Shown piece by piece: positions 9,233 to 14,978 of a stretch of 41,436 nucleotides of DNA (position 1 is its first letter; each line of letters begins with the position of its first letter). The translations under genes and the position numbers were made by a program. The stretch covers positions 1-41,436 of the forward strand of contig BAXO01000049.1 in the NCBI GenBank assembly GCA_001310555.1, written 5' to 3'. Source of the stretch: Bacillus sp. JCM 19058. GTDB lineage: Bacteria > Bacillota > Bacilli > Bacillales_H > Bacillaceae_D. Under the pieces are notes generated by a model, which was given only the letters and a program-made list of their open reading frames with translations, was not told where the DNA came from and searched no databases.

Positions 9233-9249
9233 GTTTTATAATATAAAAC
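9233..9249. promoter_or_regulatory. 17-bp palindrome, likely IclR-family operator (copy 1)
   Basis: GTTTTATAATATAAAAC is a perfect palindrome around a central base. Its exact reverse complement occurs at 14090-14106 in front of the FAH-family gene of the same pathway. It ends 15 bp upstream of the -35 box at 9265. An IclR regulator is encoded at 14145-14908, making it the obvious candidate to bind here. Confidence 0.75.
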
Positions 9250-9264
9250 ACTGTTTCATTATGA

Positions 9265-9294
9265 TTGACACGGAAAAAGATCATCCACTATAAT
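9265..9294 (+). promoter_or_regulatory. Sigma-A promoter of the xylonate dehydratase gene
   Basis: A perfect -35 box TTGACA (9265-9270) and a perfect -10 box TATAAT (9289-9294) are separated by 18 bases. Transcription would start near 9301, about 120 bases before the ATG at 9422. Confidence 0.8.
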
Positions 9295-9421
9295 AATTCA
9301 AACAGACTATGAAAACGCTTTACTTTCGTCCTTTCTTGTAAAACTGCTAATAGTTTGCTCCCATTGACCTCTTCTACACTTTCGCTCTGCTAAATCAATT
9401 GATATAAAGGAGAGATAAACG

Positions 9422-11406
9422 ATGACTCATTCAGTTGAACGGCTGATGCACTCTAGCGCTCCTGACATTTATCGCATAGAAACAAATGCGGCCGGCCCTC
9501 AAGGAAAATTGCCATTGACTGACCAAATGCTTCGCCATTCCCCAAGCGGAGACTTATTTGGATTATCGCAAAACGTTGGAATGGGTTGGAAGCCCAATCA
9601 ATTAAGCGGAAAACAAGTACTATTGCTAAGTACTCAAGGCGGAATGAAGGACCATCACGGAGAACCTATTGCCCTTGGCTATCATACCGGTCATTGGGAG
9701 GTTGACTTATTGATGAAAGAGGCAGCAAAGGAAATTACGAGCTTTCAAGGAATTCCTTTCGCTGCTTATGTCAGTGACCCGTGTGACGGACGCACTCAGG
9801 GAACAACTGGAATGTATGATTCCTTTCCTTATCGAAACGATGCAGCGATCGTTTACAGGCGGTTAATCCGTTCTTTACCGACGCGTAAGGCCGTTATTGG
9901 AATCGCCACTTGTGATAAAGGGCTTCCGGCGATGCTCATCGCTTTAGCATCCGTACATAATCTCCCGACAGTCTCGTCCCTGGAGGAGTTACTCTTCCTC
10001 CTGCTTATGGAGAGGACGCCGGAAAAATACAAACGATCGGGGCGCGTTATGCTAATAATGAGCTTAGTCTGGAAGAAGCGTCCGAGTTAGGATGTCGTGC
10101 GTGTGCAACGTCTGGAGGAGGCTGTCAATTTCTTGGGACGGCCGCTACCGCCCAAGTCGTTAGCGAAGCACTCGGTTTGTCTGTTCCCCATTCCGCCTTA
10201 GCGCCATCAGGACAGGAGGTCTGGTTGGAAATGGCGAGACAATCGGCTCGGGCAGTTATCGCACTCGAGTCGCAGCAGATCACAACGAAAGAGATTTTGA
10301 CAGATGCCTCGATTCGAAATGCAATGGTACTCCACGCGGCATTTGGCGGTTCGACGAATTTACTGCTTCATATTCCTGCGATTGCCCATGCTGCCGGCTG
10401 CACGCTGCCAACAGTGGAAGACTGGCATACAGTTAATAAAGAGACGCCTCGCCTCGTGAGCGTATTGCCGAACGGACCCGACTATCATCCCACCATCCGC
10501 GCATTTTTGGCCGGCGGCGTTCCAGAGGTTATGCTCCACCTGCGTGCTCAAGGCTTGCTAGATGAAAATGTTATGACCGTAACCGGAAAGACTTTGCGCG
10601 ATAACTTGGACTGGTGGGAGCAGTCCGAGCGAAGGTTTAACATGAAGCAACGCTTAAAAGAGAAAGATCATCTGGACGCTCACTCGGTGATTATGTCACC
10701 TAGCCAAGCGAAGGCACGAGGCTTAACGTCTACACTCACATTTCCGGTCGGGAATATTGCCCCCGAGGTCGGTCATTAAGTCAACCTCGATTGATCCATC
10801 AAGGCTCGACGATTATGGGGTATACGTTCATAAAAGTGAAGCAAAGGTGTTTACAAGTGAACACGAGGCGATTCGAGCGATTAAGAATGGCAACATTCAA
10901 AAGAACGATATTATGATTGTCACTGGCTGTGGCCTCTAGGAACGGGAATGGAAGAGACGTATCAGTTAACCTCTGCGTTAAAGCATCTGCCGTTTGGAAA
11001 ATATGTCACCTTATTGACTGATGCTAGGTTTTCGGGAGTATCCACCGGGGCATGTGTCGGTCATATTGGTCCAGAAGGGCTTGCCAATGGCCCGATCGGA
11101 AAATTACGGGACGGTGATGTAATCGATGTTCGGATCGATACGGTTAATCTGGAAGGGCATCTTCATTTTGTCGGAACGAAGGAGCAGGAGGTTTCACCTG
11201 AGGAAGGCGAAAAAATTCTGCAACGCAGAGAGCAAAATCAACAAATCATGCCCTCACCCGAGCTTCCGGATGATACGCGCCTGTGGGCCGCACTGCAATC
11301 AGTTAGCGGTGGAATTTGGAAAGGTAGCATTTACGATGTCGAGCGAATAATTAACGTATTGGCTGCTGGCGAAAAGGCGTTAAAAGAAAAGTCCGCAAGG
11401 AAGTGA
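9422..11406 (+). CDS. yjhG: D-xylonate dehydratase, YjhG/YagF type (frameshifted)
   Basis: Iron-sulfur dehydratase of the IlvD/EDD family, converting D-xylonate to 2-keto-3-deoxy-D-xylonate in the cytosol. Similarity to E. coli YjhG is close over the full length: [81 protein letters not shown], [14 protein letters not shown] and [20 protein letters not shown] segments all appear in order. The cysteines expected for the cluster (PCDGR, TCDKG, GGGCQ) are present. The start follows AAAGGAGAGATAAACG. Frames break near 9971, 10764 (two bases) and 10935; each repair restores family sequence such as [17 protein letters not shown] and APEGSVIKST. Joined length is about 662 residues, normal for YjhG. 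It converges on the aldehyde dehydrogenase and shares an operator with the FAH gene. Confidence 0.92.
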
Positions 11407-11580
11407 ATATTGTAACAGCTAGCATAAGGCTGTAGGGCAAACCCTTGCTCGGTTACTTCGTTAATACGGAAGAGCCCATCTCATTGATGCTACTGCAAGC
11501 AACTTCGACCAGTTTACACTGCAATGAACTCACTTTAGCTGAGCTTGCCAGCACGGTTGGCGGCCTGCCTAATAAGGACA

Positions 11581-11613
11581 GCGGCTACCTTGTCACAGAA
11601 ACAAGGTAGCCGC
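11581..11613. terminator. Bidirectional hairpin between converging genes
   Basis: GCGGCTACCTTG and CAAGGTAGCCGC form a perfect 12-bp stem with a 9-base loop. It lies between the ends of the dehydratase gene (11406, plus) and the aldehyde dehydrogenase gene (11635, minus). T tracts on either side are weak (TTATGTTTAATT on plus). Confidence 0.75.
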
Positions 11614-11634
11614 TTATGTTTAATTCATTTATCC

Positions 11635-13103
11635 TTATCGTTTCACAAAAACGGTCTTTGTCGTCGTAAAAAAAACTCCTTTGCCGCTTCTCCTTGCTCG
11701 CGAGAGTGCGAGCTGGAAGCTTTCATCCCTCCAAACGGAGCCTGCAGTTCAACCCCTGCCGTCTCCGAGTTAATCCGGACAAGACCAGCCTCTATTTCAT
11801 CAATAAAAGTTAGAATTTGATCGATATTTTTTGTGAAGATTGAAGCACTTAAACCATATTTTACATCATTGGCAGTTTCGATCGCTTCCTCAACGGTATC
11901 AGCCTTCATGAGAGTAAGCACCGGTCCAAAGATCTCTTCCTGGGCAATTGTCATCGATGAAGAAACTTGCTCAAATATTGTCGGCTTTATATAAAGTCCA
12001 TTTTTTTAGCTCTTCGTTGTCTGGCCTTTCGCCCCGTAAAGTAACCGAGCCCCTTCATCCAACCCTTTCTGAATGTAGCCTTCGATGGTTTCCAATTGAT
12101 GGGCGCTTGCACACGGTCCCATCCATGTATTAGCATTTAGCCCGTTGCCGACTGTTATTTGACTTACCTTTTGCAGCAGCTTCTCTTTGAAAGCGTCGTA
12201 AATACTGCTTTGAACAATGACACGACTGCTGCACGTACACTTTTGACCAGTTGATTTTAGTCCGCCGCTAATTGCTGCGTCGACGGCGAGGTCCAACTCG
12301 CAGTCCTCCATGACTAATATCGGGTTCTTTCCACCCATTTCTAGTTGATATTTTCCGCCGCGCTCAGCCACAGCTTGAGCAATTGTATTCCCTGTTTGAT
12401 TGGAGCCCGTAAAGGTTACGGCGTCTACATCCTTACTCGCTGCAAGCCCTCGTCCGATCACTGAGCCTTTCCCGGTTACTAAGTTAATGACTCCGTTAGG
12501 CAGTCCGGCTCGTTCGAAGCACTCGATGACTTTAGCAGCTGTTACGGCTGCTTCCGTTGCTGGCTTCAGCACTACAGTATTACCATAAATAAGGGCGGGG
12601 GCTACTTTCCAAATTGGGATAGCGACGGGAAAGTTCCACGGAGTAATGACCCCGACGACCCCGAGCGGAACTCGCTTACTGAACATCAACGCAGAGCTAT
12701 CCGTCGATGGGATGACATCGCCAATTTTACGCATACCCTCTCCCGCATAATAGCGCAAAATGGCTATGCCTCTGGCCGTTTCACCTTTTGCCTCTACTAG
12801 TGTCTTTCCCATTTCTCGAGTCATTGTTTCGGCAATATCATTCAAATGGTCTTCCAACATTTGTGCAGCCTTAAATAAATGATCGCCTCGCTCCGCTCCG
12901 GAAAGCCTTTGCCAGCACTTTTGTGCTAATTTCGCAGACTCGATTGCTTGCTCGAGATCGACGTGTGTCGAGCTTTGAACATTTCCAACGATTTCACGCG
13001 TATCTGCCGGATTGTAACTCGGAATCACCTCATTCGCTGACGAGGCTTGCCAAACGCCGTTAATATAATTTAAATACGTTTTTGGAGTTGTAATAGTAGA
13101 CAT
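11635..13103 (-). CDS. Aldehyde dehydrogenase, probable 2-oxoglutarate semialdehyde dehydrogenase (interrupted)
   Basis: NAD(P)-dependent aldehyde dehydrogenase, most like B. subtilis GucD (YcbD). In this operon it would oxidise 2-oxoglutarate semialdehyde (2,5-dioxopentanoate) to 2-oxoglutarate. The start at 13103 is chosen over an upstream ATG because GAGGAGG lies just before it. Visible are the [11 protein letters not shown] segment, the FTGS nucleotide loop, the general base E255 in LEMGGKNP and the nucleophile C289 in TGQKCT. An apparent TAA at 12006-12008 interrupts the frame before [11 protein letters not shown]. Two compensating one-base errors (one missing before GAAGAG, one extra A in A7) would read TTEELKNGLY, a normal sequence. 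A further A8-run shift near 11668 hides the C-terminus [10 protein letters not shown] ending at 11635. About 488 residues when joined. Confidence 0.88.
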
Positions 13104-13195
13104 TCTGTTCCTCCTCGCATAGTTAATCCTGGCCATGAGTGTCAAATTAATTCCCTACCTTTAAGCTCAAAGGTAGCCATTTTTCAATTTTTCGT

Positions 13196-14077
13196 TTATA
13201 TTTTCACACTGACTTGCTCTTTGACCGGATTTGACAATAGACCAATCTCCGGGATTTCGATGTCAATGCGATCCTCTACTTTTAACGTAAATTGGCTGTC
13301 CGGTACGATGCATGTACCCGTTAGCAGCACTGTTCCGTCAAAGATTTCATTATCCCGCAATAAGTAGGAAACCAATTCGTCATATGTTCTTTTTAGCTGG
13401 GACGTGCTTGCACTGTCTTCAAATACGATTGCTCCATCTCTGACGATTCGGCAAGTAATCGTTAAACGATAAGGATCGGCAACTGTTTCAGCTAATCGAA
13501 TCGCGGGACCAATTGAGCAGGAATGCTTCCAGATTTTTGCTTGGGTTAAATACAGTGGATTTTCCCCTTCAATGTCACGGCTACTCATATCATTTCCTAT
13601 CGTGTAGCCGACTATTTTTCCTGCTCGATTTAAGACGAGTCCGAGCTCCGGCTCAGGAATTTGCCAGTTAGAATCACTTCTCAAGTAGAGTGGTGCCCTT
13701 GGTCCAATCGTCCGACGTCCGGTTGATTTTAAGAACAGCTCCGGTCTGTCGGCTACGTACACCTTATCATAGTAAGAATCAGTCACTGCCTTTGATTCAT
13801 AATTCCTTGCATCCCTACTTTTTACATAAGTCACCCCTGAAGCCCATACTTCATAAGCGTCAACCGGGACTTGTAAGGATAAATCGTCTAACTTTTCCTC
13901 TAGGGGAAGCGAGTCCTGTATCACCTGCTTAACTAATGATAAGCACGTTCCACCCTTCCTTTCCGCTTCTTCCATTAATGATAAGAAATTAGCAAACGGC
14001 AATGCATATATGTTTGCTTCGTCCGTAACTGCCGCCAATTGCAACTCTCCTTCTTTTGAAAAACGGATAATTCTCAT
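13196..14077 (-). CDS. FAH-family 2-keto-3-deoxy-aldonate dehydratase
   Basis: Intact 293-residue member of the fumarylacetoacetate hydrolase fold. Its best functional match is 2-dehydro-3-deoxy-D-pentonate dehydratase (XylX/KdaD type), which dehydrates 2-keto-3-deoxypentonate to 2-oxoglutarate semialdehyde. The C-terminal catalytic domain has metal ligands E142 and E144 in PEPELGLVL and D163 in GNDMSSRDIEGENPLYL, a stretch characteristic of this subgroup; KIWKHSCSIGPAI follows. Start at 14077 with AAGGAGG. It precedes the aldehyde dehydrogenase by about 90 bp and is its likely operon mate. A 17-bp palindrome identical to that before yjhG lies just upstream of the ribosome site. The pairing with a pentonate dehydratase makes the assignment fairly strong, though the exact sugar (xylose or arabinose series) is not fixed. 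Confidence 0.87.
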   Translation of the reverse strand: MRIIRFSKEGELQLAAVTDEANIYALPFANFLSLMEEAERKGGTCLSLVKQVIQDSLPLEEKLDDLSLQVPVDAYEVWASGVTYVKSRDARNYESKAVTDSYYDKVYVADRPELFLKSTGRRTIGPRAPLYLRSDSNWQIPEPELGLVLNRAGKIVGYTIGNDMSSRDIEGENPLYLTQAKIWKHSCSIGPAIRLAETVADPYRLTITCRIVRDGAIVFEDSASTSQLKRTYDELVSYLLRDNEIFDGTVLLTGTCIVPDSQFTLKVEDRIDIEIPEIGLLSNPVKEQVSVKI

Positions 14078-14089
14078 CGGTTCCTCCTT

Positions 14090-14106
14090 GTTTTATATTA
14101 TAAAAC
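14090..14106. promoter_or_regulatory. 17-bp palindrome, likely IclR-family operator (copy 2)
   Basis: GTTTTATATTATAAAAC is the exact reverse complement of the site at 9233-9249. It directly abuts the AAGGAGG ribosome site of the FAH gene and contains a TATAAT on the minus strand, so a bound repressor would cover the promoter or early transcript. Confidence 0.75.
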
Positions 14107-14144
14107 CCCGTTCTCATAAAAGAGCAAAACAAAATACTGACTAA

Positions 14145-14908
14145 TTACACGTTTCGATACCCTAGGCGTAAAGAAATGGATAAGGCGGTCTCCTTTAATA
14201 AAGCAATCATTTCGTCCTTGTTCTCGAGAGTTATTCGAGAAATCGGACTAGACATACTAATGGCCGCTGTCACACCTCCTTTATAGTTGTAGACCGGGAC
14301 AGCAATACAACAGACCCCGGGCTCGTTTTCTTCATTATCTGTCGCAAATCCGCTTTGACTTACTTGCTCCAGTTCTTGCAAATAAGCGCTTTTTTTCCGT
14401 AATTGTATTCGAGGTTTGCTGAAAGAATTCGTATCCAGCTATCAACTTTCCTATTTCTTCGCTTGTTTTTAAAAGCTACGAGCACTTTTCCAACTGCGCT
14501 TGAATGGATCGGAACCCTTTTTCCGATCCTAGAAAAAACTATCGTCGCTGCCGTTCCTTCCACTTTATCGATATACACTCCCGTTTTTCCGTCGAGAACG
14601 ACGAGATGAACGGTTTGTCCGCTTATTGCCGACAATTTTGTCAAATATGGCTTTGCAACAGTACGAATATCTAACGTACTTAGTGCATAGTTCCCTCGCT
14701 CTACTAGCTTTAACCCTAAGCTGTACTTTCCCGTTTCATCATTTTGCTTAATATAGTCGTGCATTTTTAAGGTTTTCAGTAACGAATGCGCTGTGCTTTT
14801 ATTTAGTCCAAGCTTGTTACTGATTTCCGTAATTCTAAGCTCTCGATCCGTCTCGTTGAACAGATCGAGTATGTTTAATGCTCTATCCAAGGATTGAATG
14901 ATCGGCAT
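14145..14908 (-). CDS. IclR-family transcriptional regulator (frameshifted)
   Basis: DNA-binding regulator with an N-terminal winged helix (residues 5-65; ITEISNKLGLNKSTAHSLL) and a C-terminal effector domain. The ATG at 14908 follows AAGGGAG. Two one-base shifts fall in a TTTTAAAAAC stretch near 14470 and an A7/T7 run near 14390. Repairing both gives FKTSEEIGKLIAGYEFF, then EKKSAYLQELEQ joined to VSQSGFATDNEENEPGVCCIAVPVYN-type effector-domain sequence. Joined length is about 254 residues, standard for IclR proteins. It is encoded beside the pentonate pathway genes and probably controls them, sensing a pathway intermediate such as 2-keto-3-deoxypentonate. Its own promoter carries a related but imperfect palindrome. 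Confidence 0.9.
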
Positions 14909-14938
14909 ATGTCGTCTCCCTTACTGTAAGCATTTTCA

Positions 14939-14978
14939 TGTTATACTTTTACTTTATAACATTATGCCCCCTTGTCAA
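14939..14978 (-). promoter_or_regulatory. Promoter of the IclR gene with overlapping palindrome
   Basis: On the minus strand TTGACA (14973-14978) and TAAAGT (14951-14956) are separated by 16 bases. The arms TGTTATA (14939-14945) and TATAACA (14955-14961) form an inverted repeat over the -10 region. The arms resemble the half sites GTTTTATA/TATAAAAC of the two operators, so autoregulation is possible. Confidence 0.5.

Follow-up and report, generated by a model that had tools for sequence, protein, structure and literature searches.

Which protein reads the two identical 17-bp palindromes that stand in front of two convergent transcription units in Bacillus sp. JCM 19058, and what does it do there? 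The palindrome, GTTTTATAATATAAAAC, lies on contig BAXO01000049.1 (assembly GCA_001310555.1), whose whole 41,436-nucleotide stretch is referred to here as the window. One copy precedes a D-xylonate dehydratase gene and the other a gene for a protein of the FAH superfamily, which has an IclR-family regulator gene beside it. Comparison with related genomes indicates that the 17-mers are very probably landing sites of a XynR-type regulator. We read them as the cores of three-box operators for the IclR-family protein encoded at 14145-14908, in a pentonate regulon in which both units are most likely repressed, and we give this reading a probability of about 0.8.

The 17-mer occurs exactly at 9233-9249 on the forward strand, and its reverse complement, likewise exact, at 14090-14106, so that both sites show the same 17 letters when read along the direction of each gene. 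This arrangement, and the convergence of the two units, agree with a first-pass annotation of the window. The identity between the two sites extends to 18 bp. The element is an 8+1+8 palindrome and is therefore its own reverse complement save for the central base. As that annotation had also proposed, there is no third copy: no other place within three mismatches was found in the window, where the four strand matches observed at this threshold compare with 0.27 expected and none of 100 shuffles reaches four. On a scoring matrix built from the FAH sites of 38 relatives within three mismatches, hence selected for likeness to the 17-mer, both window sites score 29.3 bits and the next-best position scores 6.4 bits. 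The elements at the two sites are:

9233..9249, + strand: candidate operator core on the dehydratase side, centred at about −60, upstream of the dehydratase promoter
9253..9260, + strand: candidate third box GTTTCATT on the dehydratase side, 3 bp off the core, toward the promoter
9265..9294, + strand: predicted sigma-A promoter of the dehydratase gene, TTGACA-18-TATAAT
14090..14106, − strand: candidate operator core between iclR and the FAH gene
14110..14117, − strand: candidate third box (GTTCTCAT on the + strand) on the FAH side, 3 bp off the core, facing away from the FAH gene

The palindrome is part of a longer element. Among 162 unique sites (the window not included, related promoters counted separately), a third half-site GTTY stands exactly 3 bp from the 17-mer in 120, on one side in 119 and on both sides in 1, and in no more than 7 at each of the other offsets between 0 and 39. 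All seven sites picked as likely chance occurrences lack it. Both window sites carry GTTY at this distance together with a GTT-N11-AAC core, which fits IclR three-box operators, alternating in direction. PMC8222616 reports the three-box arrangement for certain groups of the IclR family, including PcaU and PobR. The first proposal of a 17-bp palindromic operator was accordingly right about the core and incomplete in its extent: alignment of the sites predicts a 28-bp three-box element, composed of an inverted repeat and a third, direct-repeat half-site.

The tie between the operator and the neighbouring regulator comes from relatives' genomes, on which all genome-wide tests rest. In 120 genomes of one family, an orthologue of the window's iclR is present in 11, all of which have sites within one mismatch (23 in total). 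The 109 genomes without the orthologue hold 20 sites, one or two in each of 18 genomes (0.18 per genome); a reversed-pattern control finds 27 sites in the 120 genomes, so the genomes without the orthologue are not above chance. A second sample comprised 37 FAH-bearing genomes, with orthologues called from 50% identity upward (the group below reaches at most 43%). A site is present in 25 of the 26 genomes with the orthologue (G072 being counted through its locus L080) and in 1 of the 11 without, where it lacks the third box. In one genome (G003) a single contig carries the regulator and FAH genes 2.4 Mb from each other, with sites at both. The expectation that the 17-mer tracks the IclR gene was thus borne out, and conservation and co-occurrence both support an operator specific to this regulator in front of the two convergent units.

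The second sample covers 38 of 80 related loci, the best 80 of 134 places encoding FAH relatives, of which 79 carry Bacillota names and one (L046) is titled Pseudomonas. The 17-mer occurs with up to two mismatches within 100 bp before the FAH gene in 36 of the 80 loci, as compared to 0.02 expected from shuffles, and 30 of the 36 matches end 12-18 bp ahead of the FAH start. The window is similar, with the core 12 bp ahead of the FAH ATG and adjoining an AAGGAGG ribosome site. Scattering at unrelated loci, which would have spoken against an operator, was not found; the copies precede functionally linked genes. At eight loci (including L053:10135 and L080:10135) an operator-like sequence with one to three mismatches lies inside the FAH frame, at codon 45. 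These eight have no site right before FAH, and the internal match is possibly a coding coincidence or an internal site.

The regulator itself is assigned by identity and phylogeny. The N-terminal piece of the window protein is 62% identical to Escherichia coli XynR over 146 amino acids, 77% identical to its orthologue at locus L001, and at most 46% identical to 11 paralogues. The intact L001 orthologue, from Aquibacillus koreensis (L001:9164-9931), is 52% identical to XynR over 252 amino acids and 31% identical to YjhI over 224. In a tree of 25 proteins, drawn from E. coli and Bacillota only, a clade of 10 rows (99/98) is set apart from KdgR, PlaR, IclR, YjhI and the 11 Bacillota paralogues, the deeper branches being weak, and XynR is nested inside the Bacillota orthologues (99/96), next to those of L106, L108 and L136. 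By these comparisons the window regulator is assigned to the XynR clade; the window piece, not among the 25 proteins of the tree, was placed through its identity values. The label KdgR comes from the best NCBIfam hit, which is below cut-off, and from some JGI names ("KDG regulon repressor"); we dropped it for XynR on identity and the tree. E. coli XynR (L161:505-1263) is encoded on the cryptic prophage CP4-6, and its nesting among Bacillota regulators suggests transfer between phyla, as far as this narrow sampling goes.

The operator had been called possibly undescribed, and that did not hold, since it corresponds to the XynR/XyrR box in the GTT-11-AAC layout. The XynR (YagI)/yagEFG system of E. 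coli K-12, which has a dehydratase of the same family as the window, carries the box GTTCTATAATGTAGAAC before yagE with three mismatches and GAAC 3 bp away. The gel-shift probe used with XyrR of Serratia sp. ATCC 39006 contains GTAGAAC-TTA-GTTCTATAATATAAAAC, with one mismatch to the core (16/17) and a third box, AGAAC, 3 bp from GTTCTATAATATAAAAC. In that work, purified XyrR shifted this yagE-promoter probe, and expression of XyrR shut down a yagE-promoter reporter. XyrR differs from the window system in a box that overlaps the −10 element, a pleiotropic role and an aldolase branch. In passages of PMC13279387, XynR is described as a repressor and YjhI as an activator, both answering to 2-keto-3-deoxy-D-xylonate. 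YjhI, the activator of yjhIHG, shares with the window the IclR family, a xylonate operon and the dehydratase family; the stretch of the E. coli yjh region that was compared has no site with up to three mismatches. The GTT-11-AAC layout and the three-box arrangement are described by Suvorova and Gelfand 2021 (PMC8222616), where GTT-11-AAC is enriched both in Firmicutes and with sugar-acid genes. The commonest motif centre there is −22 from the start codon, and the window FAH site is at about −21. From the printed consensus GTTYCRYW3RYGRAAC the window core departs symmetrically at two positions, T for C at 5 and A for G at 13. The main-text passages of that paper do not name the regulon under the terms searched, and its supplementary tables may list it. 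The passages of PMC12445098 report no box for Salmonella SL1344_3500, those on Thermotoga KdgR give no sequence to compare, and open-access literature listings yielded no description of this Bacillota regulon. The layout, the three-box form, the regulator family and the box itself are already described, the last in enterobacteria. A XynR-clade regulator with matching boxes makes the locus, on this evidence, a probable XynR regulon, here on a Weimberg-type branch. The genes concerned are:

9422..11406, + strand: D-xylonate dehydratase gene, frame-broken
11580..11614, no strand: inverted repeat with 14-bp perfect arms and a 7-nt loop, between the convergent units
11643..13103, − strand: alpha-ketoglutaric semialdehyde dehydrogenase gene, a single frame with a stop codon near 12006; best hit NF042993
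13196..14077, − strand: gene for the FAH-superfamily protein, intact, a homologue of 2-keto-3-deoxy-D-arabinonate dehydratase (PDB 2q18)
14145..14908, − strand: gene for the IclR-family regulator of the XynR clade, in two pieces, the frame broken between ~14423 and 14462

The dehydratase, the FAH protein and the semialdehyde dehydrogenase presumably carry out the three Weimberg-type steps from pentonate to 2-oxoglutarate. All three roles (pentonate dehydratase, keto-deoxypentonate dehydratase and semialdehyde dehydrogenase) are assigned by homology, and two of the three genes are interrupted. The FAH protein aligns with PDB 2q18 over residues 1-288 of 293 (226.6 bits), and the two IclR pieces contain the helix-turn-helix domain PF09339 and the effector domain PF01614. 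The E. coli system ends in the YagE aldolase, whereas the window has the FAH-family dehydratase and the semialdehyde dehydrogenase instead, and the window regulon contains no YagE-type aldolase. In some relatives, L106 for example, an operator adjoins a gene of the DHDPS family.

Where the operator lies relative to promoters bears on what the regulator does. In the window a near-perfect promoter, TTGACA (9265-9270) and TATAAT (9289-9294), stands 133 bp ahead of the dehydratase start, and 15 bp separate the end of the operator core from its perfect TTGACA. Near 138 sites we searched for promoters with at most one mismatch to TTGACA-16/18-TATAAT, leaving out those that overlap the operator. Of the 44 promoters found, the operator centre is at −57 to −60 in 9, at +26 to +34 in 15 and elsewhere in 20, as compared to 0.0 and 0.05 for the two ranges with shuffled flanks (20 shuffles gave none at −57 to −60); the ranges were set after a first look at dehydratase upstream regions. 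Because start sites are predicted from the hexamers, operator positions may be off by a few bases. The upstream placement is found in 9 of 15 dehydratase upstream regions (the window, at −60, included), and the downstream placement, at about +31, mainly at TRAP and IclR promoters. In a held-out test of eight relatives, seven of them with the dehydratase, the operator is at exactly −58 in six of the seven (not in L147). In the final set, 13 of 15 upstream operators (with two ties) and 14 of 15 downstream operators have their third box toward the promoter. Common ancestry of the dehydratase promoters explains part of this regularity. Near a strong sigma-A promoter, the predicted operator often lies at a fixed distance, either about −58 or about +31, and its third box usually faces the promoter. 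Just past the predicted dehydratase start, TGAAAACGCTTTAC at 9310..9323 (+) is what we take to be a cre-like (CcpA) site, and a cre-like pattern 5-20 bp after the predicted start is present in 11 of the 15 upstream-type promoters, the window included, a count made with no chance control. The two preferred placements and the cre-like sites set the Bacillota loci apart from E. coli.

From these elements we propose that one regulator of the XynR clade would control a Weimberg-type route from pentonate to 2-oxoglutarate, acting on the D-xylonate dehydratase on one side and on the FAH-family dehydratase and alpha-ketoglutarate-semialdehyde dehydrogenase on the other. It would repress both units and would likely be released when 2-keto-3-deoxypentonate, the dehydratase product, builds up. 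At the FAH gene, the regulator bound in the leader between iclR and FAH may act as a roadblock; roadblock or readthrough is suggested here because the FAH leader of the window has no promoter within two mismatches. The TATAAT within the FAH operator was tried as a −10 element and dropped: only L071 has a fitting promoter (at most one mismatch), and the assignment is inconsistent because the central base varies among relatives. At the dehydratase gene, the regulator at about −60, its third box adjoining the −35 element, would block or destabilise RNA polymerase, and the CcpA-like site past the start may add carbon catabolite control. For the +31 sites and the FAH leader, the simplest interpretation is that the keto-deoxy acid lifts repression.

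At the −58 to −60 site of the dehydratase promoter, where the third box abuts the −35 element, repression is probable with a wider margin of doubt. It is favoured by the consensus-strength promoters and by XynR being a repressor; activation is favoured by the fixed spacing and by the three-box activators in the family. A dual regulator, which would activate the dehydratase promoter from −58 by contact with RNA polymerase and repress from +31 or in the FAH leader, is possible and in our view rather unlikely. It would account for the −57 to −60 placement in all 15 upstream promoters of the final set as well as the 9 of the first, for the exact −58 in the held-out relatives and for the promoter-side third box. 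It would also have company in YjhI, which activates a xylonate operon (PMC13279387), and in PcaU and PobR, activators by the titles cited in PMC8222616, whose passages place activators and dual regulators in the IclR family. The same promoters, however, have a perfect TTGACA and near-perfect −10 boxes and should need no activator, and XynR, within the clade, and XyrR are repressors. Loci whose regulators stand next to XynR in the tree fall on both sides: the dehydratase site of G003 is also at −58 (L107), whereas in L108 and L136 the operator is near +30 of weaker predicted promoters (two mismatches). Doubtful as well is the idea that one asymmetric three-box operator serves at both −58 and +31 with its third box toward RNA polymerase, so that the same complex would activate from upstream and repress from downstream, E. 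coli XynR being an offshoot of the Bacillota system.

Explanations that dispense with the IclR protein fare worse than either mode of regulation. AT-rich palindromes are common targets and no footprint from Bacillota was found, which would leave room for another regulator, but site presence follows this IclR protein and falls to about chance level without it, the third-box pattern fits IclR-family three-box motifs, and an almost identical sequence accompanies, or is bound by, the closest characterised orthologues, making another regulator very improbable. That the repeat, AT-rich and short as it is, arose by chance or is a leader-RNA element or mobile remnant is scarcely credible: base composition predicts 1.8e-5 exact copies in the window, the copy at 9233-9249 would not be part of the transcript because it lies upstream of the predicted promoter, and the copies in relatives precede functionally linked genes. 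Repression of both units by the XynR-type regulator remains our preferred reading, and several observations count against it. No site within two mismatches is present in the 100 bp upstream of 44 of the 80 FAH genes; some of these loci have no regulator nearby, or a site elsewhere, and not all are accounted for, so that absence from relatives with the same genes was not found with this reservation. One genome with the orthologue (G043) has no site within one mismatch, its locus L033 having one with two. The strict third box is missing from 42 of the 162 sites. Only 44 promoters were found near the 138 sites, 20 of them outside the two preferred distances, and 6 of the 15 dehydratase regions (L074, L108, L115, L124, L136 and L137) have no −58 placement. 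A repressor upstream of −35 is unusual, no promoter was found in the window FAH leader at up to two mismatches, and the literature yielded no binding data for any Bacillota member. If the interruptions of the dehydratase, iclR and dehydrogenase genes are real, the pathway may fail in this organism.

What is new here is a probable Bacillota member of the XynR regulon and a placement rule that merits a test. This would assign a regulator, a more complete operator and a set of genes to pentonate catabolism in many Bacillota, and would link the regulon to an enterobacterial regulator that is already characterised and whose effector is known. The positions −58 and +31, with a promoter-facing third box, offer a testable geometry for how an IclR protein meets RNA polymerase, and the promoters may serve as xylonate-responsive parts for Bacillus hosts.

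Of the four pathway genes, three are broken: the dehydratase twice (9964-9973 and 10745-10933), the dehydrogenase by the stop near 12006 and iclR once. The stop is in the unshifted frame, inside an A7/T7 run; the break at 9964-9973 has no run of four or more beside it, and a T5 run at 14466 adjoins the one at 14423-14462. Insertions or deletions at long homopolymer runs were dropped as the cause of all the breaks after these had been mapped. Sequencing error and decay are both possible, because only some breaks adjoin such runs. The stem at 11580-11614 is perhaps a two-way terminator, its T-tracts being weak. The order IclR-FAH-dehydrogenase facing a convergent dehydratase recurs at 4 of the 80 loci (L001, L003, L005 and L040) and in seven further relatives (L146 to L152). 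Among the 120 matches listed, self excluded, the nearest relative of the FAH protein is from Virgibacillus necropolis (74% identity).

An imperfect version of the operator had been noted at the iclR promoter (14939-14961). We rejected it as a third operator: its score is no higher than 2.7 bits, where the real sites reach 29.3 and the best unrelated position 6.4. The sequence at 14938-14962, which spans the predicted iclR promoter, is a different perfect palindrome with other spacing, ATGTTATA-N9-TATAACAT; in 16 relatives, the regions upstream of iclR match its 16 arm bases with at least 4 mismatches at best.

In relatives, 139 unique sites within one mismatch lead to 127 proteins within 400 bp. 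These fall into clusters of 34 (the scanned member being a TRAP DctP protein), 31 FAH, 14 dehydratase, 10 IclR and 6 solute-binding proteins. The remaining clusters are small and include an MFS transporter (best NCBIfam hit a D-galactonate transporter, below cut-off), a DHDPS-family protein and aldehyde and 2-hydroxyacid dehydrogenases. The counts describe this set and are no census, because the loci were picked by the FAH gene together with 40 stretches chosen by hand. The 10 IclR neighbours mean that some relatives have the operator at iclR itself, which the window does not. A self-contained regulon of two units, as first envisaged, is therefore correct in that both pentonate units have an operator and incomplete in that relatives add the TRAP transporter and other genes. 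An Anaerobacillus contig (L133:744-16579) exceeds the set of the window with six operators in 16 kb; the proteins next to them include binding proteins of the TRAP and peptide/nickel types. Promoter regions at eight loci (L016, L034, L039, L048, L072, L114, L123 and L127) contain two or more operators about 50-150 bp apart, which may allow looping.

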